From NCBI RefSeq assembly GCF_017901135.1, contig NZ_CP072801.1, forward strand, positions 620,001-684,000: 64,000 nt of DNA. Direction: 5' to 3'. Under the pieces are notes generated by a model, which was given only the letters and a program-made list of their open reading frames with translations, had not been told where the DNA came from and ran no database searches. The first letter of the stretch is position 1. Each line of letters begins with the position of its first letter. The DNA comes from Thiothrix litoralis. Its GTDB lineage: Bacteria; Pseudomonadota; Gammaproteobacteria; Thiotrichales; Thiotrichaceae. Shown piece after piece: positions 15,052 through 25,145 of the stretch. The translations under genes and the position numbers were made by a program.

Positions 15052-16398
15052 ATGCTATTTTCTGAACTCGGCTTGTCCGAGCCGCTGTTGCGTGCCATCA
15101 GCGAACAGGGTTATGACACCCCAACTCCCATTCAAGCACAAGGTATCCCTGCCGTCCTTTCTGGTCGTGACATCATGGCTGCTGCGCAAACGGGCACAGG
15201 CAAAACTGCTGGTTTCACCTTACCGATGCTGCACTTGCTTTCGGCTAACGGCAACCAGCCTAAATCCAATCATATTCGCGCCCTCGTGCTTACCCCAACC
15301 CGCGAACTCGCGGCACAGGTTGGCGAAAGCGTGCGTGACTACGGCAAGCATCTGCCGATCAGCTCTACCGTGGTGTTTGGTGGCGTGAGTGCCAACCCGC
15401 AAATGATGGCCTTGCGCCGTGGGTTGGATGTACTGGTGGCAACACCGGGGCGTTTGCTGGACTTGTACGACCAGAATGCCGTGAGGTTTTCCCAAGTGGA
15501 AATGCTGGTGCTGGACGAAGCTGACCGCATGTTGGACATGGGCTTCATCCGCGACATCCGCAAGATTCTGGCGTTGCTGCCGAAGCGTCGTCAAACCCTG
15601 ATGTTCTCTGCCACGTTTTCCGATGACATCGTTGCACTGACCAAGGGCTTGTTGAATAACCCGGTACAAATCTCGGTTAGCCCGCGCAATGCAGCAGCCA
15701 AGACGGTTACACAGTCGGTTTACCTGATTGATAAAGCCCGTAAAACGTCCTTATTGAGTCATTTGATTCGTGAGAATCAGTGGGAACAAGTGCTGGTCTT
15801 CTCGCGTACCAAGCACGGCGCGAACCGTTTGGCTGAAAAGCTTGAGCGTGATGGTGTTACCGCCGCCGCTATCCACGGCAACAAAAGCCAAGGGGCGCGA
15901 ACCAAAGCACTGGCCGATTTCAAGCAAGGCAATATCCGTGTATTGGTGGCAACCGACATCGCTGCACGTGGTCTGGACATTGAACAGTTGCCGCACGTTA
16001 TCAATTTCGAGCTGCCGAATGTCTCGGAAGATTACGTACACCGCATCGGGCGTACCGGGCGTGCAGGCGCAACGGGTGAAGCGATTTCACTGGTGGAGCC
16101 GGAAGAATACGGTTTCCTGAAAGGCATCGAAAAACTCATCAAGCAGCAATTGCCGCGTGAAACATTGCCAACCATCAGTGTTGCACCGACCCGTCAATTG
16201 ACCGCCGCCGAGATTGCCAAGGATGCGGAAGCTGATCGCCCGCGCCCTGCCCAGCATCGTCCTGCGAATCGCCGTAGCAGCTCGCAGAAGAGTGATGTCC
16301 GCAAAGCGGCTGGTTTACCGCCGGTGAAAAAAGCCGAAGGTGCTGCCAGCAAGCCGCGTCGCCGTCGCCCTAATAAGCCGAAAGCAGGCGTCGCGTAA
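15052..16398 (+). CDS. rhlE: DEAD-box ATP-dependent RNA helicase, RhlE type
   Basis: 448 residues. Walker A AQTGTGKT at 45-52, PTRELAAQV, the DEAD box near 153-157, SAT near 185, and HRIGRTGR near 330-337 are all intact. The Q motif (GYDTPTPIQ) sits at 20-28. The C-terminal 70 residues are basic and of low complexity ([22 protein letters not shown]), as in RhlE and not in DbpA or SrmB. Likely roles are ribosome assembly or mRNA decay. It is 7 bases downstream of the CYTH gene. Confidence 0.92.
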
Positions 16399-16419
16399 GC
16401 TGGTTCCAGCCAGATGTAG

Positions 16420-16446
16420 AGGGCAACCTTAGCGTTGCCCTTGTTG
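16420..16446 (+). terminator. probable terminator of the helicase gene
   Basis: Perfect 8-bp stem (AGGGCAAC at 16420-16427 with GTTGCCCT at 16434-16441), a 6-base loop, then TGTTGT. The T-run is interrupted. The hairpin overlaps the last codons of the convergent VWA gene. Confidence 0.55.
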
Positions 16447-17595
16447 TGTCACAATCCCTTCCTTCGCTGCCCATACCCCTAAATCCTGCTTGCCCAGCGC
16501 ATTGGCCATCAGTGCCGGGAACTGGTCAGGCGTGCAGGCAAAGGTCGGAATCCCCAACGCCGCAAATTTCGCCGCCATATCATGATCGTAGAACGGTGCA
16601 CCTTCGTCACTCAATGCCAGCAGGGAAATCACCTGTACGCCAGACGCCACCAGTGTTGCCACCCGTTTGAGCATTTCCTTGGCATTCCCGCCTTCGTACA
16701 AGTCGCTGATCAGGATGAATACGGTATCGTCCGGGCGTGAAATCAAGCTCTGACAGTAACCCACCGCACGGTTGATGTCGGTGCCGCCGCCGAGTTGCAA
16801 GCCGAACAGCAAATCCACCGGATCATCATGCAATTCATCGGTCAAATCGACGATAGCCGTATCGAATACCACCATTTTGGTACTCAGGGCGGGCATGGAT
16901 GCCATTACCGCTGCGAAAATACTCGAATACACCACCGACGGAGCCATCGAACCGCTTTGGTCGATACACAACACCACTTCCTTGAGGGCTGAACGCTTGC
17001 GCCCGTAGCCGATCAGCTTGTCCGGTACGATGGTGTTGTATTCCGGCAGGTAGTTTTTGATATTGGCGCGGATGGTGCGGTTCCAGTCGATTTCCTGCAA
17101 ACGTGGGCGGCGGTTACGCACGGCACGGTTGAGTGCGCCCTTGACGGCTTGCTGCATCGGCTGTTGCAGACGGCTTAACAATTCCTCTACCACTTTGGCG
17201 ACGACTTGGCGGGCGGTGTCCTTGGTTTTGCCGGGGATCACGTTTTTGAGTGAAATCAGGGTGGCGACCAGATGGATGTCGGCTTCAACTGCCTGCAAGA
17301 CTTCCGGCTCCAGCAGTAATTGGCGCAAGCCAAGGCGTTCGATGGCATCCTGCTGGATGACGCGCACCACGGTAGCGGGGAAATACTGGCGGATGTCGCC
17401 CAGCCAGCGGGTGACGTTGGGGGCGGAAGCACCCAAACTGCCACGGCGTCCGCCCGTGTTTGCACCATCACCGTAGACGGCGGCGAGGCACTGATCCATG
17501 CCTTGCTCCATACTGCTGAGGGTGCAGCCGATGCCGTCGGCTTCGCCACCACCGAGAATCAAGCGCCAGCGTTTTTGGCGGGTTTCAGCTTGCAT
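16429..17595 (-). CDS. VWA domain protein of the SWIM/MoxR/DUF5682 operon
   Basis: 388 residues. The C-terminal von Willebrand A domain carries the MIDAS motif D-x-S-G-S at residues 212-216 (CIDQSGSM), a conserved Thr in GGGTDINRA, and an Asp in LISDLYEGG, so metal-dependent ligand binding should be intact. The N-terminal half is helical with a basic stretch (NRRPRLQEIDWNRTIR), similar to CoxE-type VWA proteins. It is the last gene of a five-gene leftward operon and overlaps the DUF5682 gene by 11 bases. VWA proteins next to MoxR ATPases generally act as substrate adaptors; the substrate here is unknown. Confidence 0.9.
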   Translation of the reverse strand: MQAETRQKRWRLILGGGEADGIGCTLSSMEQGMDQCLAAVYGDGANTGGRRGSLGASAPNVTRWLGDIRQYFPATVVRVIQQDAIERLGLRQLLLEPEVLQAVEADIHLVATLISLKNVIPGKTKDTARQVVAKVVEELLSRLQQPMQQAVKGALNRAVRNRRPRLQEIDWNRTIRANIKNYLPEYNTIVPDKLIGYGRKRSALKEVVLCIDQSGSMAPSVVYSSIFAAVMASMPALSTKMVVFDTAIVDLTDELHDDPVDLLFGLQLGGGTDINRAVGYCQSLISRPDDTVFILISDLYEGGNAKEMLKRVATLVASGVQVISLLALSDEGAPFYDHDMAAKFAALGIPTFACTPDQFPALMANALGKQDLGVWAAKEGIVTQQGQR

Positions 17596-19846
17596 GTACT
17601 ACCTCCAGTCCCAGAATCATCGCGACCAATGGCAAGGCTGCCTCGGCGCGGCTTGCATCCATGTCATTGGTTGCGCTTGTGACAGGCAAGGCCGCTTGCC
17701 CTTGTTTGACCCGTTCGCCCATTTGCCGACGTTCCGGTGCGGTAAAGGTGGCAAAGGTACGGCGTAATACCGGCAGCAATTGCTGGAAAGTCTCATCGCC
17801 CAACGTGCTGATCCAGTGGTCAATCAGGTTCCACAAGGTTTCGTCGTAGATGAGCAATTGCCCACTGTCACGCAGGAAGCCGTCGATCCAAGCGGCGGCT
17901 TGCGCGGGGTCATTGGCGGTCGACAGTGCCAACCCGAAACGGCGTGCGCTTTCATCTTCCGCCACCGCACCGGATTGCAGCAGCAGACGGCAACAACGCC
18001 CAGCCAGCAAGGTGTGCAAGCCGTGTTGGTCGAGCAGGGCTTGCAAGGTTTGTGTCCATTGCTGGCTGAAGCTGTCGTCATCCAGCAAGTTGACCGCTTC
18101 CTGCACCGATTGGATGTGTTTGAACATGGCTTCGGCAGCTTCTTCATTGAGCGCACTGCACGCATTGGGCAGGCCAATGCAGATGCGCGTCACCATGCCA
18201 GTGACAACGTGGCTGACCTGTTCGACCGAGGTTTTGCGTACATCGCCGTAACGTAACAGGCGAGCCAGCTCTGGCAAGGCTTGCATCAGGTGTACGATGT
18301 CGCTGCTGATTGCGGCTTCGGCTTGCAGGCGTTGCATCAGGACATCCACCGCGTTGGGCAGGTTGGCGTAGAGGGATTCATGCGCCATGCTGGCGAGCTG
18401 TTCCAGCGAATGCGTGTCTTGTGCCTGTTTGACCAGCTTGTGGGTGGCCGCTTCCGCAAGGGTATTGCCCCAGAACCCGGCTTCGATCAGGCGGATGGCG
18501 AATTCGGGTTGCCACAAGGTGCGCCAGCTTTCCTTGAAGGTACCTTTGCCGTTGGCACGTTTGCCACCTTTACCCCAGTCGATGCCGAGAAGCTGGAGGC
18601 GACGTAGCAAGTAACTGCGTTCGAGATCGGTGGATTTACGCAGGTCGAGTAGCAAGTCGGCGTCACTGGCGGAAGGTTTGAGGCGCAGGCGTTTTTGTTC
18701 CTGTGTCAAATCCTGTTGCAGCGGGGTTTGCGGGGTTTCATCGGGTACGCTACCCAAGGCTTCGCCGACCAGTAACTTGCGGTGCAGCAGTTGCATGGGG
18801 GTAGCATCGCCGAAGAGCATGACGCTTTGCACCGCTTCGTTCAGTTCTGCCAGACCGGGGCGCGGGCGGTTGCGCATCGCGGCGAGGGTTTCCGCCAAAC
18901 GCACGGTTTCAATAATGTGGGCGGAAGAAATGTCGAGTCCTTGAGCGCGGAAAGTGTGCGCTACCCGCGTCAGCCAGCGGGTTTGTAGGGGCGAATGGCA
19001 TACGCCCGCTTCACTGCATTTCCAGAGATGCGCATACCAACCGGGGGCATCCACGCCCGCACCGTAGCCGCTGGCGGAACTGAGGCGTTCGTGCGTCCAC
19101 GGAACCCAAGTCGCCGTTGTTTTGAGTTTGGGTAAGCCTTTGAGCAAGGTGTCATCGGCTTTGGCAGCGGGTAAGGTTTGCAGTACGGGGGCGTGCCATG
19201 CGCCACACACCACGGCAATGGTCTGGAATCCGTCTTTGTTGGCCTGACGAATGGTTTTTCGCATGTGGGCTTCGCGCAGTTGTTCGCGCTCGTATTCGGC
19301 AGTGTCACGCGGGCAATCGGTATCGACTTCATTGCGCAGGGCAGTCATTGCTTCAAGAATGGCTTGGAACAGTTGGCTGGAATCCTGGCGTTCCTCGACC
19401 ATGTGTTCCCACCAACGCTCGCTGTCGGCGTAACCTGCCGCCTCTGCCAGCAAGGCCAGCGGGTCACGACGAATAACGGCGGAAGCGTTTGGCTCATCGG
19501 CGGATTCAACAGACTCGGCGGCTTTGTCGCGGGCGAAGCTGTTCCCCACGGGCAAATCCATAAAGCGCACGGGAATCTGCTGTGCCAATGCGTAGCGGAT
19601 TGCCTGCCATTCCGGGGAATAGTCGGCGAAAGGGTAGTACACGGCGCGTTGCGGCTCATCCGGTGCGTACAGCAGCAGGGCAACCGGCGGCTGCATTTGC
19701 TCATGCGCCGCCAGCGGCAGAATGCTGTCGGCTTCGGGCGGGCCTTCGATCAGAATGCAGTCCGGCTGCAAGGCGCTTAATGCCTGCACAAGGCTGCGAG
19801 CGGAGCCGGGGCCGTGGTGGCGGATGCCGAAAACGTGATGTGGCAT
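17585..19846 (-). CDS. DUF5682 family protein
   Basis: 753 residues. The N-terminal 230 residues show a pattern like the TraB/ChaN/erythromycin-esterase superfamily: GIRHHGPGS at 7-15, ILIEGPPEAD at 31-40 with Glu34 and Glu38, MDLPVG at 96-101, and VVCGAWHAPVL with His218. These suggest a metal- or His/Glu-based hydrolase site; this is inference from motif spacing. The remaining 500 residues are rich in helices and leucine with no recognised catalytic motif. The start follows a GAGGT ribosome-binding site, 10 bases after the MoxR gene. It is the fourth gene of the operon. Family assignment is confident; the reaction is unknown. Confidence 0.85.
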   Translation of the reverse strand: MPHHVFGIRHHGPGSARSLVQALSALQPDCILIEGPPEADSILPLAAHEQMQPPVALLLYAPDEPQRAVYYPFADYSPEWQAIRYALAQQIPVRFMDLPVGNSFARDKAAESVESADEPNASAVIRRDPLALLAEAAGYADSERWWEHMVEERQDSSQLFQAILEAMTALRNEVDTDCPRDTAEYEREQLREAHMRKTIRQANKDGFQTIAVVCGAWHAPVLQTLPAAKADDTLLKGLPKLKTTATWVPWTHERLSSASGYGAGVDAPGWYAHLWKCSEAGVCHSPLQTRWLTRVAHTFRAQGLDISSAHIIETVRLAETLAAMRNRPRPGLAELNEAVQSVMLFGDATPMQLLHRKLLVGEALGSVPDETPQTPLQQDLTQEQKRLRLKPSASDADLLLDLRKSTDLERSYLLRRLQLLGIDWGKGGKRANGKGTFKESWRTLWQPEFAIRLIEAGFWGNTLAEAATHKLVKQAQDTHSLEQLASMAHESLYANLPNAVDVLMQRLQAEAAISSDIVHLMQALPELARLLRYGDVRKTSVEQVSHVVTGMVTRICIGLPNACSALNEEAAEAMFKHIQSVQEAVNLLDDDSFSQQWTQTLQALLDQHGLHTLLAGRCCRLLLQSGAVAEDESARRFGLALSTANDPAQAAAWIDGFLRDSGQLLIYDETLWNLIDHWISTLGDETFQQLLPVLRRTFATFTAPERRQMGERVKQGQAALPVTSATNDMDASRAEAALPLVAMILGLEVVHAS

Positions 19847-19856
19847 GGGTTTTACC

Positions 19857-20951
19857 TCACAATGCTTCGCGGCAAGCCCGGTACAAATCTTTCCAATCCG
19901 AACGCTCTTTCACCACTGTTTCGAGGTATTCCTTCCACACCACGCTGTCTTGCACCGGGTCTTTGATGACCGCGCCGATGATGCCGGAAGCTATATCCCG
20001 CGCGGTCAGGCTGCCGTCACCAAAGTGGGCAGCTAGCGCCATGCCGCTGCCAACGACAGAAATCGCTTCGGCGGTACTCAGTGTGCCGGTGGGTATTTTG
20101 AGTTTGGTTTTACCATCAGCGGTTACGCCACTGCGCAATTCGCGGAAGATCGTGACAATGCGGCGAATTTCAGCCAGTGCGGGTTTTTCCGCAGGCAATT
20201 CCAGCGCTCGCCCGAGGCTGGCAACGCGGCGGTCGACGATGGCGGCTTCCTCATCCAGCGTGTCGGGGATCGGTAAAATCACGGTATTGAAACGGCGTTT
20301 CAGCGCACTCGATAGCTCGTTCACGCCCTTGTCGCGGTTGTTGGCGGTGGCAATCAGGTTGAAGCCTTTTTGCGCTTGGCATTCGGTATTGAGTTCGGGG
20401 ATCGGCAGCATTTTTTCCGAGAGGATGGTGATCAACGTATCCTGCACATCCGCCGGAATACGGGTCAGTTCTTCCACCCGAGCAATCAGGCCGTGCTGCA
20501 TCGCGTGCATGATGGGGCTGGCAATCAGCGCGTCATGCGAGGGGCCTTTGGCGATCAGTTGTGCGTAGTTCCAGTTGTAACGCATGGTTTCTTCGCCCGT
20601 ACCTGCCGTGCCTTGCACGATCAGGGTGGAACGCCCGGAAATGGCAGCGGCGAGGTGTTCCGATACCCACGATTTGGCGGTTCCCGGCAGGCCGTATAGC
20701 AGCAGCGCCCGGTCAGTCGCCAACGTGGAAATCGCAATTTCCATCAGGCGGGCATTGCCGATGTATTTGGGGCTGATCTCAATGCCGCCATCGAGTTTGC
20801 CGCCAAGCAAATAAGTACGCACCGCCCACGGTGACAACACCCAATTGGGTGGGCGGGCATGGGTATCGGCTTCGCGCAGGGCGGCGAGTTCATGGGCAAA
20901 TTCGTTTTCAGCATGTTGGCGCAGAACGGCTTTGAGGGTGTTGTCGCTCAT
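19857..20951 (-). CDS. MoxR-type AAA+ ATPase
   Basis: 364 residues from ATG at 20951, preceded by AAGGA at 7 bases; an ATG at 20975 inside the upstream gene is less likely. Walker A GLPGTAKS is at 87-94. The Walker B position reads LIARVEELTR, with Glu160-Glu161 where most MoxR proteins have Asp-Glu. Sensor 1 is ATANNRD at 201-207, and the Arg-rich ALKRRFNTV follows. MoxR proteins are hexameric ATPases that remodel partner complexes together with VWA proteins. It is the third gene of the operon, between the DUF5691 and DUF5682 genes. Confidence 0.92.
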   Translation of the reverse strand: MSDNTLKAVLRQHAENEFAHELAALREADTHARPPNWVLSPWAVRTYLLGGKLDGGIEISPKYIGNARLMEIAISTLATDRALLLYGLPGTAKSWVSEHLAAAISGRSTLIVQGTAGTGEETMRYNWNYAQLIAKGPSHDALIASPIMHAMQHGLIARVEELTRIPADVQDTLITILSEKMLPIPELNTECQAQKGFNLIATANNRDKGVNELSSALKRRFNTVILPIPDTLDEEAAIVDRRVASLGRALELPAEKPALAEIRRIVTIFRELRSGVTADGKTKLKIPTGTLSTAEAISVVGSGMALAAHFGDGSLTARDIASGIIGAVIKDPVQDSVVWKEYLETVVKERSDWKDLYRACREAL

Positions 20952-20967
20952 GTTTTTATCCTTGGTG

Positions 20968-22512
20968 TTAAGCATTTTCCAGCGCGGTGAGCATGTCGGC
21001 TCGAAAGCGCAGGGTGAACAGGGTTTCGGTCAGCAGGCGTTTTATGCCATTGGATTGGTCTGCCTGCAAAGGTTCATGGAGAAGAGTGGCAAATTCTTCC
21101 GCACACACTGGGGCAGCATGGATAGCAAAATGACGTACTACTGTGTGCGTGGCGTAACTGAGGAGTGTGGTTTGCACTTGTTTTGCTACAGCAGGCAGGA
21201 CTTGCCTAGAAAAAGTTGTTGACCACGGATGCTGCAAAGATGGAAGGAGATTCAGTAACTGTGGGCTATCATCCCTGCTCAGCAGAGCACTAGCCGTTTG
21301 CTCTGCCAAAGGAGGTGAAAGTTGTTGCCACAATACATTGTCACCAGGATTTATATGAGTGAACCACGCTGTACTCCAATCAGTATTCGGGTAACGGTGC
21401 AATGCTTGCTCCCAGCCAGCTCTAAAAGTTGTGCTCCAATCACTGCGGCAGCTTAACAATAATAAAGTATCGGGGGTGGCCTGCCAGCGCTGTGCCAACC
21501 GGACAGGCGGAACGAAGGAGAGCGCCTGTTCCAGCCACCATGCCTTCGCACCTTTGCCTTGCGGTGGTTTTTCTTCAATGCCGTCGCGTAACCAGCTTTT
21601 GTCCCATGTTTCCGGCAGATTGACCTGCAAGGTTTTTTTGCCCCCCAGTTTATTGAGCAAGCCGGTTTTGGTTTGTATTGCCAGCCAATGGACGAGCCGG
21701 GTTTGCATTCGCTGGCTGAAGGCGGAATCCGGTAATGCGCCCAGCAGTTCGGCGGCTAATTGGCGCACGCCTTTGCTGCGGTCATCGAGACAGGTTTCTA
21801 GCCATGCTTCATCTGCCATGCCGAGATTGGTTTGCAGTGCTTGTAGCAATTCTTGCCGTACTGGCGCAGCTTCCTGTTTCCACACCGCTTGCAATAGCTC
21901 ACGGGCTTCCGCTGGCTGGTGGGGGCGCAATTGGCGTAGGTATTCGGCACGTTGTGCGGGGTTACCTTCTTCCCAAATACTGACGTCGTGGTCGGCAGTT
22001 TCCAGCGTCAGTGTCAGCAGGCGTTGCCAGTCGGGATGCTGGTTGCAAAGCCAGTGCCCACGTTGCCCGATCACCGCACTGATAGCCGGGCGAATGGCGC
22101 GGCTTTGTTGGGCTTGCTCCATCAGGGCAGGAATGAAGGTTGTTGGTACGCGCAAACTTTTGGCTGCGACACGTTCCAGCCAGCCATGCAGCAGGGGGTG
22201 CAAATGACTGTCTGCCAGCATTCGCCGCAGGTGCATTTCAGCGGCAGGTGGGATCAAGGGAAAATCCGGTTTAACGTCCGGGCTTGCTAATGTGCCAGTG
22301 AACACGGCTGGCAAGTTACCCGCCGCACGGTATTGCAGCGCTAAGGCTGCCGCACCGAGGAAAGCGCTTTCGCGGCTGCTGTCCGTCGGCACTTGCCCTT
22401 GCGGGTAAAGTTGCGCCAGATAGGGTTGCAGGGCGGTGTTGCCTAGTGGAACTTGGGTTTGGCGTTCTGTGCCCAACAGGGCGATTTTGAGCAGGGTTTG
22501 TTGCAGTGGCAT
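20968..22512 (-). CDS. DUF5691 family protein
   Basis: 514 residues from ATG at 22512, two bases after the stop of the SWIM gene; a longer frame to 22572 lies within that gene. The protein is helical throughout and rich in Leu, Gln and Trp. Stretches such as SKGVRQLAAELLGALPDSAFSQ recall HEAT-type helical repeats. No catalytic motif is seen. DUF5691 genes occur beside SWIM-finger and MoxR genes in several bacterial phyla, so it is probably a scaffold or substrate-binding subunit; that role is inference. Confidence 0.82.
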   Translation of the reverse strand: MPLQQTLLKIALLGTERQTQVPLGNTALQPYLAQLYPQGQVPTDSSRESAFLGAAALALQYRAAGNLPAVFTGTLASPDVKPDFPLIPPAAEMHLRRMLADSHLHPLLHGWLERVAAKSLRVPTTFIPALMEQAQQSRAIRPAISAVIGQRGHWLCNQHPDWQRLLTLTLETADHDVSIWEEGNPAQRAEYLRQLRPHQPAEARELLQAVWKQEAAPVRQELLQALQTNLGMADEAWLETCLDDRSKGVRQLAAELLGALPDSAFSQRMQTRLVHWLAIQTKTGLLNKLGGKKTLQVNLPETWDKSWLRDGIEEKPPQGKGAKAWWLEQALSFVPPVRLAQRWQATPDTLLLLSCRSDWSTTFRAGWEQALHRYPNTDWSTAWFTHINPGDNVLWQQLSPPLAEQTASALLSRDDSPQLLNLLPSLQHPWSTTFSRQVLPAVAKQVQTTLLSYATHTVVRHFAIHAAPVCAEEFATLLHEPLQADQSNGIKRLLTETLFTLRFRADMLTALENA

Positions 22513-22514
22513 GG

Positions 22515-23843
22515 TTACGCAGCCTCGTTGGTTTGGAAGGTGCCGCAAACTTGCAGGGTGTTGCCGTCCCACTCCCCAAACACATGCAGCGGATGCCCGC
22601 CGCTTTCCGCCAGCAGTATCCAGCCCTGTTCATCGCTGATGCGCAAGGGAACCGCGTGTTGTTCAGCATCAACCAACAGCCATTGCTGATCATGGCGGGC
22701 GGGGATGGCGTTGGCAATGGCAAACGGGAAATACCCCAACCAGGGGCATTTGCCCAGTGCCGTACCATAGGCTGCGAAGTTGGCAGCTAGCGGTATAAAG
22801 GCGGCTGCTTTGCTCCCTTCACCCCTTGTGGGGGAATCGCTGGGGATGGGGGGTAATGCCCGCAAGGGTATGGCAGCGGGGTAATAAATGGCTTTGCCTT
22901 CCAGATTGCCACCAAGGCCGGGGTACAAAGCCATTGGCTGGTTCTGCACTGCAAAATCCAGTAACAACGCGTATCGCTGCGATTCCACCCCGTATAACCA
23001 AGTGCGTTGCGTGCGCATTTGTCCGTCGTCTTCTTGGCGTTGCCCGACTACTTGCCAGTGATCCGTGATGCCATCGAGTGCCAGCACGTCGTCCTTGCTC
23101 AGGTTGAAACCGATATGTGCCAGCACGTCAGCCTGTACGTCGGCGGGCAGCTTGTCGCGACGTTGCCAAGCTTCCAGCAGCAGGTGGAGACGCGCCAGTT
23201 CTGCCAGTAATTTTTCCTGCCATGCGCCGCCTTGGTAACGGAGGCTGGCGGCATTTTGCAGGCTACGGGCAAGGCCGGGGGCTTGCGCATCCACCATCCG
23301 CGCTGCCATGCGTTGCCATTGGTTATCGTCACTGTTGGCTAAGCCTTGGCGGATCAGGTCGGACAGCCAGCGTTGCAACTCGGTAATGCCTGCGTTTACC
23401 TTGTCTTCGCGGGCGGCGTTGCGTTTTTGCTGGGCAGCCGCCCGTTTTTGCAAGGTGGCTTCGTCAACCGGCTCGTCTTTGGCGGCAGCTTTGTCGGCTT
23501 GTTTCTGGGCGCGTTGCCCGCGTTTTTCCAGCCATTCCTGTAGCCAGACGGGTGGTTCGTTGCCGGTGAGTTTGTCAGGGTGGGCGGCGAATACCAGTGC
23601 GAGGCCAAGGCCGTGTTTGCAGGGAAATTTGCGGCTAGGGCAGGAGCATTTGAACGCAGGTTCTGCAAGGGCAATGGCGGTCTGGTAAGGATTTTTGCCG
23701 CTGCCTTTGATTTCACCCCACAATACGCCGTCGGCTTGCCCCAAGGTTTGCCATTGGTGCGGCTGGCTGAGTTTTTCGCCTGCCTTGAGTGAGGCGGCAT
23801 CGGGGGAAAGTGCTGCAACTTGCGCCGTTGTCCATGTCGTCAT
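22515..23843 (-). CDS. SWIM zinc-finger protein
   Basis: 442 residues. The SWIM motif C-x-C-x6-C-x-H is complete at Cys66, Cys68, Cys75 and His77 (CSCPSRKFPCKH), preceded by a beta-rich segment as usual. A Lys/Ala/Gln-rich probable coiled coil follows at about 110-155. SWIM fingers bind DNA or proteins. A short low-complexity peptide in the C-terminal half (IPSDSPTRGEGSK) looks like a translated GC-rich repeat insertion. It is the first gene of the leftward five-gene operon and is divergent from hisC, so the operon promoter should lie in 23844-24014. Confidence 0.88.
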   Translation of the reverse strand: MTTWTTAQVAALSPDAASLKAGEKLSQPHQWQTLGQADGVLWGEIKGSGKNPYQTAIALAEPAFKCSCPSRKFPCKHGLGLALVFAAHPDKLTGNEPPVWLQEWLEKRGQRAQKQADKAAAKDEPVDEATLQKRAAAQQKRNAAREDKVNAGITELQRWLSDLIRQGLANSDDNQWQRMAARMVDAQAPGLARSLQNAASLRYQGGAWQEKLLAELARLHLLLEAWQRRDKLPADVQADVLAHIGFNLSKDDVLALDGITDHWQVVGQRQEDDGQMRTQRTWLYGVESQRYALLLDFAVQNQPMALYPGLGGNLEGKAIYYPAAIPLRALPPIPSDSPTRGEGSKAAAFIPLAANFAAYGTALGKCPWLGYFPFAIANAIPARHDQQWLLVDAEQHAVPLRISDEQGWILLAESGGHPLHVFGEWDGNTLQVCGTFQTNEAA

Positions 23844-23886
23844 AGGTCGTTTGTTATTATTGGTGAATAATGCAGCCTAGTGTAAG

Positions 23887-23962
23887 AACAGCTTGTGGCC
23901 TTTGCAAGGCTGGCTGACAAGCTGTTTATTTACCAGCAGTTTCGTTAACGTCTTGGCAAGAC
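23887..23962. promoter_or_regulatory. nested and tandem hairpins in the SWIM-hisC divergent spacer
   Basis: A perfect 10-bp inverted repeat (23887-23896 with 23917-23926, AACAGCTTGT) encloses a small hairpin GCCTT-TGC-AAGGC (23898-23910). A second small hairpin, GTCTT-GGC-AAGAC, lies at 23950-23962. Each small hairpin is followed by GGCTGGCTG. Neither flanking gene ends here, so these are not terminators; they could be operators or a hisC leader structure. The function is not known. Confidence 0.45.
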
Positions 23963-24014: not shown

Positions 24015-25145
24015 ATGCAATCAACCGTTGATTTCAAAAAACTTGCCGTGACCGGGGTACAAGCCTTGCACCCTTACCAGCCGGGCAAGCCTATCGAAGA
24101 GCTGGAGCGCGAACTGGGGATTAGCAATATCCTCAAACTGGCCTCCAACGAAAACCCGCTGGGTGCTAGCCCCAATGCACAGGCGGCGATTGCTGCCGCG
24201 TTGAAAACGTTGGAACTCTACCCCGATGGCAGTGGCTACCAATTGAAAGCTGCGATTGCCGATAAGTTTGGCCTGCAAAGCGCACAGATTACCTTAGGTA
24301 ACGGCTCCAACGATGTGCTGGAATTGATTGCCCGTGCGTTTCTGGATAATAGCCGTGCAGCGGTGTTTTCAGAATACGCCTTTGCCGTTTACCCCATTGT
24401 TATTCAGGCGGTTGGGGCGGAATTGCGCGTTGCCAAGGCGAATTCTCCCGAACATGACACCATGCCTTACGGGCATAATCTGGCGAATATTGCCGCGAAA
24501 ATCACGGATAATACCCGCGTGGTGTTCATCGCCAACCCGAATAACCCGACGGGGACGTGGCTGAGCAAGGCAGATTTGCACGCTTTCCTGCAACGTGTGC
24601 CCAGTGATGTGATCGTGGTGATCGACGAAGCCTACACCGAATACGTGAATGACCCGACCTTCCCGAATGCGTTGGCATGGCTGGCGGAATTCCCGAATCT
24701 GATTGTTACCCGGACGTTTTCCAAGATTTACGGGCTGGCAGGTTTGCGGGTGGGGTATGCGGCTTCCGGCGCAGATATTGCCGATATGCTCAACCGGGTA
24801 CGTCAGCCTTTTAATGTGAATTCACTGGCCTTGGCGGCGGCGCAAGCGGCTTTGGGCGATGAGGCTTTCCTCCAGCAAAGTGTTGCCACCAACGCGGCGG
24901 GTTTGCAGCAATGGTTTGCGGCGTGCGCTGAGAATGGCTGGGAATACATCCCGACCGTGGGTAATTTCATTACGGTGAACATGAAGCGACCCGCTGCGCC
25001 TTTATACGATGCTTTGCTGCGCGAAGGGGTGATTGTGCGTCCCATTGGTGGCTACGGTTTGCCGCAACACTTGCGTATCACGATTGGTACACAAGCGCAG
25101 AATGACCGTTGTATCAAGGCATTACAGAAGGTTCTTAGCGCGTGA
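24015..25145 (+). CDS. hisC: histidinol-phosphate aminotransferase
   Basis: 376 residues. PLP-dependent fold type I aminotransferase. Signatures: SNENPLG at 44-50, NPNNPTG at 174-180, DEAY at 204-207, and the PLP Lys237 in TFSKIYGLAGLR. In this position, beside tyrA and aroA, the enzyme may also serve phenylalanine and tyrosine synthesis as an aromatic aminotransferase. It overlaps tyrA by 4 bases (GTGA). The upstream spacer contains hairpins and a 12-base motif also found before aroA. Confidence 0.94.
   Translation: MQSTVDFKKLAVTGVQALHPYQPGKPIEELERELGISNILKLASNENPLGASPNAQAAIAAALKTLELYPDGSGYQLKAAIADKFGLQSAQITLGNGSNDVLELIARAFLDNSRAAVFSEYAFAVYPIVIQAVGAELRVAKANSPEHDTMPYGHNLANIAAKITDNTRVVFIANPNNPTGTWLSKADLHAFLQRVPSDVIVVIDEAYTEYVNDPTFPNALAWLAEFPNLIVTRTFSKIYGLAGLRVGYAASGADIADMLNRVRQPFNVNSLALAAAQAALGDEAFLQQSVATNAAGLQQWFAACAENGWEYIPTVGNFITVNMKRPAAPLYDALLREGVIVRPIGGYGLPQHLRITIGTQAQNDRCIKALQKVLSA

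Follow-up and report, generated by a model that had tools for sequence, protein, structure and literature searches.

A patchily spread YehL-type MoxR–VWA cassette of Thiothrix litoralis: architecture, predicted DUF5682 hydrolase and a possible role in defence

This report deals with five adjacent genes in a 64,000-nucleotide stretch of DNA from Thiothrix litoralis (RefSeq assembly GCF_017901135.1, contig NZ_CP072801.1, positions 620,001 to 684,000 of the forward strand), referred to below as the window. Read in the direction of transcription, they encode a SWIM zinc-finger protein, a DUF5691 protein, a MoxR-class AAA+ ATPase, a DUF5682 protein and a VWA protein (Table 1). The first-pass annotation, made from the letters alone, had placed five such leftward genes at 16429–23843, and this was borne out: all the open reading frames (ORFs) are in place, match the corresponding Pfam families and have intact motifs, Walker A of the ATPase among them. 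As listed, the ORFs overlap by 58 (SWIM/DUF5691), 8 (DUF5691/MoxR) and 11 bases (DUF5682/VWA), while 10 bases separate MoxR from DUF5682. The true start of DUF5691 is probably the ATG at 22512, which is preferred because the resulting N-terminus resembles that of the homologues, and which would turn the 58-base overlap into a 2-base gap after the SWIM stop.

Conservation was assessed in the window's nearest kin, the best 80 of 581 confirmed loci obtained from a species-genome collection with a MoxR alignment as the sole query. MoxR residues G95, G98, K101, E168-E169, N212 and R227-R228 are kept in 80/80 of these relatives. The usual form of the Walker B motif is D-E; residues 168-169, which presumably correspond to it, read E-E in every one of the 80. 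In the metal ion-dependent adhesion site (MIDAS) of the VWA protein, D212, S214, S216 and D298 are found in 63/63 relatives and T272 in 62/63. The SWIM zinc finger scores above its Pfam cut-off and has the signature CxC...CxH ligands (C66xC68...C75xH77), which are C/C/C/H in 67 of 69 relatives, the other two having gaps.

Table 1. The five-gene cassette, the stretch that contains it and the genes on its borders (window coordinates)
Feature	Coordinates	Strand	Remarks
SWIM zinc-finger protein, 442 residues	22515..23843	-	Pfam SWIM 4.1e-4, 20.3 bits (cut-off 19.6)
DUF5691 protein	20968..22512 (listed ORF to GTG at 22572)	-	Pfam DUF5691 1.6e-125; putative scaffold
MoxR AAA+ ATPase, YehL subfamily, 372 residues	19857..20975	-	AAA_5 2.4e-35; putative hexameric motor
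DUF5682 protein, 753 residues	17585..19846	-	Pfam DUF5682 4.5e-282; putative hydrolase
VWA (CoxE-like) protein, 388 residues	16429..17595	-	VWA_CoxE 4.1e-51; complete MIDAS; putative adaptor between motor and client/effector
7552-base stretch between rhlE and the region upstream of hisC	16399..23950		22 other bases here in five congeners
rhlE-type DEAD-box RNA helicase	15052..16398	+	Left border of insertion site, outside the system
hisC-type aminotransferase	24015..25145	+	Right border of insertion site, outside the system

The five genes are a conserved, self-contained and patchily spread cassette, with strict linkage among close kin. Among the 51 of the 80 loci that have at least 6 kb before and at least 7 kb after MoxR (the other 29 were dropped for short flanks), 45 contain all five families, and the remaining six are missing between one and four. 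The exact order SWIM-DUF5691-MoxR-DUF5682-VWA, with gaps below 300 bases, is found in 42 of the 80 loci, and in four more the first two genes are turned. Since this order and content recur over 12 phylum-level groups (the 79 loci with a taxonomic label), the association is not a matter of chance. A second route of ascertainment, through DUF5682, gave nine loci of the window's type (type I) that were searched whole and 12 of the Escherichia coli yeh type (type II, discussed below; E. coli included). The type I locus of congener G012, whose cassette is interrupted by a contig break, was excluded from this count. All five families were found in 9/9 of the type I loci, and across the 21 loci MoxR and DUF5682 are present in 21 and VWA in 20, the locus without it being at a contig end. 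Finally, in a sample of 398 genomes of the phylum (that of the window included), DUF5682 was found in 14 and DUF5691 above cut-off in seven, with two further DUF5691 matches below it. These seven genomes are exactly the seven with a window-like DUF5682, the two genes lying side by side (Fisher p 3.4e-15); window-like here means above a line of 650 bits that was drawn after seeing the scores, which are either at least 658 or at most 371. No sixth obligatory gene was found at the 80 loci, DUF4132 lying within ~10 kb of MoxR in 5/80. The earlier claim that the genes belong together is upheld by the 45 loci, the seven genomes and two gene fusions in relatives (see below). Homologues regularly found apart from each other, which had been named as the outcome that would undo it, were not seen among the close kin, although DUF5691 is absent from the yeh type.

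This yeh type means that the cassette is not an orphan. In E. coli K-12, yehL, yehM, yehP and yehQ encode MoxR, DUF5682, VWA and SWIM proteins in one run, which by sequence comparison is a homologous operon of the window cassette. MoxR is identical to YehL at 139 of 348 aligned positions (40%) over nearly its whole length, and identity is 27% between DUF5682 and YehM and 34% between the VWA protein and YehP. For the SWIM protein and YehQ there was no BLASTP alignment, and the pairing obtained with hhalign (P 0.0014, probability 18%) lies outside the finger. E. coli K-12 has two MoxR proteins, and one of them, YehL, has given its name to a MoxR subfamily (PMC3893208), which is also named in PMC11834572 and PMC11432383. 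The window MoxR falls in this subfamily by its motifs and its likeness to YehL (the other MoxR subfamilies were not scored singly) and by the DUF5682 and CoxE-like VWA genes that adjoin it, as they do in the 45/51 and 21-locus sets above. In a quick tree, which came with long-branch warnings, type I MoxR forms its own clade (99% in the Shimodaira–Hasegawa-like approximate likelihood ratio test) apart from the yeh type. The first-pass annotation had described the five genes as a set of unknown function; no published function, for them or for the yeh operon, was found in the literature searched, but the E. coli homologue and the named subfamily had been missed.

The 12 type II loci (11 found via DUF5682, plus E. 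coli; that of L190 is truncated by a contig end) carry DUF4132 in nine cases and a long SWIM protein in eight. Some of the scored loci had themselves contributed to both profiles, but DUF4132 had been detected there beforehand by single-sequence searches, except in L186. In eight of the nine, DUF4132 is upstream of MoxR, i.e. in the position that DUF5691 has in type I (E. coli has yehK in between), and in the ninth, L192, it separates DUF5682 from VWA. In this second type DUF4132 mostly takes the place of DUF5691, and both families give weak HEAT-like signals. A third layout was seen in two of these 12 loci (L016:13465-14939 and L017:6983-8411), placed beside type I in the same quick tree with its long-branch warnings, in which uncharacterised proteins of 104-112 and 378-383 residues are encoded upstream of MoxR-DUF5682-VWA. 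Matches to SWIM, DUF5691 and DUF4132 are absent from this layout, and a gene for 344-350 residues lies nearby, one copy of which matches BRCT at a score slightly under the cut-off.

Some relatives depart further from the common arrangement. In two Eremiobacterota loci (L068, L069) SWIM-DUF5691-MoxR is followed by two other genes instead of DUF5682-VWA; in L068 one of them encodes a GFA-ankyrin protein and the other a protein of 615 residues that weakly matches DUF6930/DUF7309. Saprospiraceae (L076, L077) and Aureispira (L093) have a close YehL-type MoxR with no partners found in the fetched flanks, only a distant VWA being present in L077, and in L093 MoxR adjoins a 2864-residue ORF. Just past the cassette of Thiofilum (L013:531-4451) lie a second AAA+ gene matching AAA_5 and then a gene for an FGE-sulfatase-domain protein, a pair that is perhaps another MoxR-type system.

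An idea of what the individual proteins may do came from profiles and structural models. The SWIM protein consists of the N-terminal finger, a long helical middle and a C-terminal β-rich region with weak matches to oligonucleotide/oligosaccharide-binding (OB) folds. Its model has a predicted local distance difference test (pLDDT) score of 93.2, and a Foldseek search with it gave no match at E ≤ 0.001, the weak ones including eIF5A/EF-P, ZSWIM8 (E 0.032), LEF-3 and HIN. DUF5691 is a probable HEAT-like α-solenoid scaffold, a profile of 60 sequences having aligned with artificial HEAT-type (alphaRep) repeats over ~75 positions (E 0.001-0.003). Searches of solved structures by sequence returned nothing useful at E ≤ 1 for the SWIM protein or DUF5682, and nothing at all for the VWA protein. 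Two fusions suggest which parts touch, SWIM with DUF5691 and DUF5682 with VWA. In Hymenobacter sp. HDW8 a single 1009-residue ORF comprises SWIM (2-464) and DUF5691 (495-1005), and in a type II-like cassette of Streptomyces sp. NBC_00984 an annotated 1257-residue protein comprises DUF5682 and VWA. Both are plasmid-borne, none being seen among the 80 MoxR-found loci. Together with the position of MoxR between the two pairs in the type I order, they suggest that the motor is flanked by one half for recognition and another that acts as effector. In CbbQ-CbbO the VWA partner binds and stimulates the MoxR ATPase. Binding and stimulation by the VWA partner have also been described for RavA-ViaA (PMC3893208).

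DUF5682 is likely to be a TIKI-like hydrolase, as predicted from its N-terminal α/β domain (~1-270), which is followed by a helical part. The residues H10, E34, D97, R191, E192, G215 and H218 recur in all 12 type II proteins and in 71 of the 72 of type I, the remaining one having a gap. In a model with a mean pLDDT of 89.9, H10, E34, D97 and H218 come just after strands 3-8, 30-33, 93-95 and 210-215, respectively. The TIKI/TraB motif takes the form GxxH. Members of this superfamily are described as having a 2His/2Glu site and a parallel sheet (PMC6254334), and DUF5682 has two His and one Glu at the ends of core strands (H10, E34 and H218), the second Glu not having been located. When 71 DUF5682 N-terminal sequences were compared by hhalign with 11 TraB proteins (from 14 fetched loci, retained if both motifs were present), both sets being trimmed so that the first motif comes soon after their start, P was 8.8e-5 and the probability 60%; FGIRHH was paired with the TraB GxxH and IEGP with the TraB Glu. 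Seven decoy profiles in the trimmed run gave P 0.088-0.7 and ChaN gave 0.029. Without trimming, and with type I only, the second half of the pattern (R..M...GxxH) was aligned to TraB with P 0.0027 and a probability of 11%. This is moderate support for a putative TIKI/TraB-like domain. The earlier picture is supported in that a MoxR–VWA engine comes together with a SWIM finger, a protein that is probably a helical scaffold and another that is probably a hydrolase.

The genomic setting turned out to be less stable than had been thought from the housekeeping genes around the operon. In five congeners (G004, G006, G008, G010 and G013) rhlE and hisC are less than 100 bases apart and free of the cassette, homology with the window ending at 16398 and resuming at 23951, with 22 bases in between in the congeners. 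Since these congeners lack the genes at this very site, and relatives are found on plasmids, the neighbours do not make the operon a housekeeping one. The 7.55-kb stretch with the window copy is probably an insert, insertion being a simpler reading than loss, and its G+C content is 57.7% compared with 53.8% for the whole window. DUF5682 was found in 3/16 genomes of the genus. In G012, the window cassette also lies beside rhlE and hisC, but on two contig ends, the break running through DUF5691; MoxR (100% identical to the window), DUF5682 (99%) and VWA (99%) are next to rhlE and the SWIM end is next to hisC. In G001, the rhlE-hisC gap holds instead three genes (L183:2125-5977) that match all parts, A, B and C, of the candidate PADLOC defence system PDC-M55 with E 2.5e-34, 4.4e-7 and 1.3e-61 (Pfam AAA_15 and GmrSD_N, the middle gene being uncharacterised). 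The two border genes are not neighbours in the other eight genomes of the genus, including G014, which has its cassette elsewhere. There, homology with six other genus genomes (the window's included) stops just past a response-regulator gene, within the 17-18 kb fetched there. The side that is not conserved has genes for type I restriction (two ORFs), modification and specificity, together with a PIN pair, an IS66 transposase and PDC-S11 (3.2e-144). An SNF2 helicase gene, whose helicase part matches ZorD and DpdE, follows VWA by 43 bases on the same strand.

DUF5682 was found in 36 of 72,556 plasmid records, some of which, judged by length, are chromosomes filed as plasmids. Six plasmid stretches were opened. 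Three encode the complete type I set in unbroken ORFs (if the fused one is included), two are type II-like, and one, from a Methylosinus plasmid (L244:10217-11385), has VWA split into several short ORFs and may be decayed. One of the two type II-like cassettes, on an Iodobacter plasmid, is followed by type I restriction–modification (RM) genes, with transposases around. Carriage by phages was considered and rejected, the best 80 of 204 relatives in the viral_contigs collection being remote AAA+ proteins (24-31% identity), and a phage-collection record with MoxR-DUF5682-VWA, an UNVERIFIED 14-kb faecal scaffold, was not used as evidence. The scatter within the genus, the empty site in five congeners and the plasmid copies argue for an accessory nature.

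These observations outline a model in which the SWIM protein, with its zinc finger and possible OB-like domain, would recognise a target, perhaps nucleic acid, on the HEAT-like DUF5691 scaffold. The MoxR ring would spend ATP on remodelling the complex through the VWA protein, a MIDAS adaptor, in the manner of the VWA partners of RavA and CbbQ. DUF5682, bound to VWA, would use its TIKI/TraB-like active site (H10, E34, H218) to hydrolyse a protein or a small-molecule substrate, and might be set off when the motor releases or loads it. The most likely role would be defence against invading DNA. The reading we lean towards, without granting it quite an even chance, is therefore a mobile, patchily spread YehL-kind system, driven by nucleoside triphosphates, in which a SWIM/DUF5691 recogniser, a MoxR-VWA motor and a DUF5682 hydrolase serve such defence. 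We are fairly sure of the architecture, the better-supported half of this explanation, while the defence role is a lead and a leading guess that rates below an even bet. What prompts it is the candidate defence system at the same site in G001, the RM, PDC-S11 and SNF2 neighbours in G014 and the RM genes in Iodobacter. A bolder version, which appears doubtful, is an anti-invader system of new design. Its SWIM/HEAT part would recognise the invader, MoxR-VWA would be the motor and the effector would be a TIKI-type protease or hydrolase; the system would extend across 12 or more phylum-level groups and be resident as yehLMPQ in nearly every E. coli.

Several findings weigh against a role in defence or against its proposed effector. 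None of the five window proteins matches PADLOC-DB 2.0.0 at E ≤ 0.001 (0/5), so the cassette has no counterpart among the anti-phage systems modelled there, and Foldseek with the whole DUF5682 model gave no match at E ≤ 0.001, the 50 listed being mainly helical repeats with none titled TIKI-fold. A general defence-island bias did not emerge from the neighbours of the 80 relatives (one uncut gene of 120-600 residues on each side, 130 genes in all, the 25 commonest families being listed): they match 144 Pfam families, each in at most four genes, and, at E ≤ 1e-10, 43 PADLOC models, each in at most two, both figures being without a control set. PDC-M55 is itself just a candidate and the SNF2 matches are generic, and no close YehL-type MoxR was seen among the best 80 of the 204 viral_contigs relatives. 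Most defence genes are not known to be near-universal within a species, whereas yehM is matched in 5284 of 5426 E. coli genomes (with at least 80% covered in 5166). Genome-reduced E. coli without the whole yeh region has been described (PMC10652928), from which it follows that the region is dispensable in culture.

The partners in type II hint at DNA damage instead, and the first rival explanation, which we consider unlikely though it is the most serious one, is a response to DNA damage or general stress in which the complex would detect DNA that is broken or single-stranded and then act on a chromosomal protein by remodelling or cleaving it. Besides DUF4132 and WGR in type II and the sub-threshold BRCT match near one related cassette, the near-universal yehM would suit a resident function, and depletion of DdrO in Deinococcus radiodurans leads to strong upregulation of one DUF4132 gene and one WGR gene (PMC8533742). 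However, these two genes may lie outside any YehL cassette, and in irradiated irrE-deletion cells they are not upregulated (PMC8533742). Moreover, DUF4132 is missing from the window genome and lies close to MoxR at only the five type I loci counted above, while a resident repair role is hard to square with the patchy distribution and with a site that in a congener holds a candidate defence system.

Less probable again is enzyme maturation, in which MoxR and VWA would activate one metabolic enzyme, as in CbbQ-CbbO and NorQ-NorD, with the other proteins as client-specific helpers. At one relative (L014, from G026) the cassette is downstream of a run of what we take, from sequence appearance, to be pqq-like genes and a peptidase-like gene, and maturation is the role proposed for characterised MoxR proteins (PMC3893208). 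Yet pqq-like genes occur at this one locus only, of 86 searched, and no enzyme gene recurs at one position next to the cassette; the neighbour cluster with most members spans 10 loci, on one side or the other, and is represented by a sensor kinase. Any client would need to be either universal or encoded within the cassette, and DUF5682 itself could be that client. This last idea, that the motor inserts a metal into the hydrolase or activates it for a metabolic or signalling need, draws on the DUF5682-VWA fusion and the conserved His/Glu site but leaves the SWIM finger and the shared insertion site unexplained, and we rate it lowest of all.

Beyond the named YehL subfamily and the homologous E. 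coli yeh operon, what is new here is the TIKI/TraB-like domain proposed for DUF5682, the second type with DUF4132 for DUF5691, the two fusions and the insertion site. The predicted active site, the fusions and the definable insertion site open the operon to testable claims.

How does the cassette compare with known systems? It resembles the MoxR-VWA-effector ternary conflict systems described in PMC7159879 and PMC10910872 in combining MoxR and VWA with added domains, in its patchiness and in a conflict-like setting. It differs in that its bpMoxR match is 20.4 bits against a cut-off of 27 and that bpX, VMAP and β-propeller domains are absent from the Pfam matches of the five proteins at E ≤ 0.001; conversely, a term search of the main text of PMC7159879 returned no SWIM, DUF5682 or DUF5691. 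With PDC-M55 it has the rhlE-hisC site in common, through G001, although the genes are unrelated. The pattern GxxH...E...R..M...GxxH of DUF5682 and the positions of its strands recall TIKI/TraB proteins, but here the N-terminal domain is joined to a long helical part, the profile probability stands at the 60% given above and the first G of the motif is P in 8/12 type II proteins. The E. coli operon has the same MoxR-DUF5682-VWA order and a SWIM gene, but its SWIM protein is longer and last in order, and upstream it has DUF4132 (yehI) where the window has DUF5691, as well as the WGR gene yehF. Finally, as in CbbQ-CbbO, NorQ-NorD and RavA-ViaA, a MoxR AAA+ protein is paired with a VWA partner (NorQ being a weak sequence match, E 7.8e-5), but in the window this pair is part of a five-gene set that includes a predicted hydrolase.

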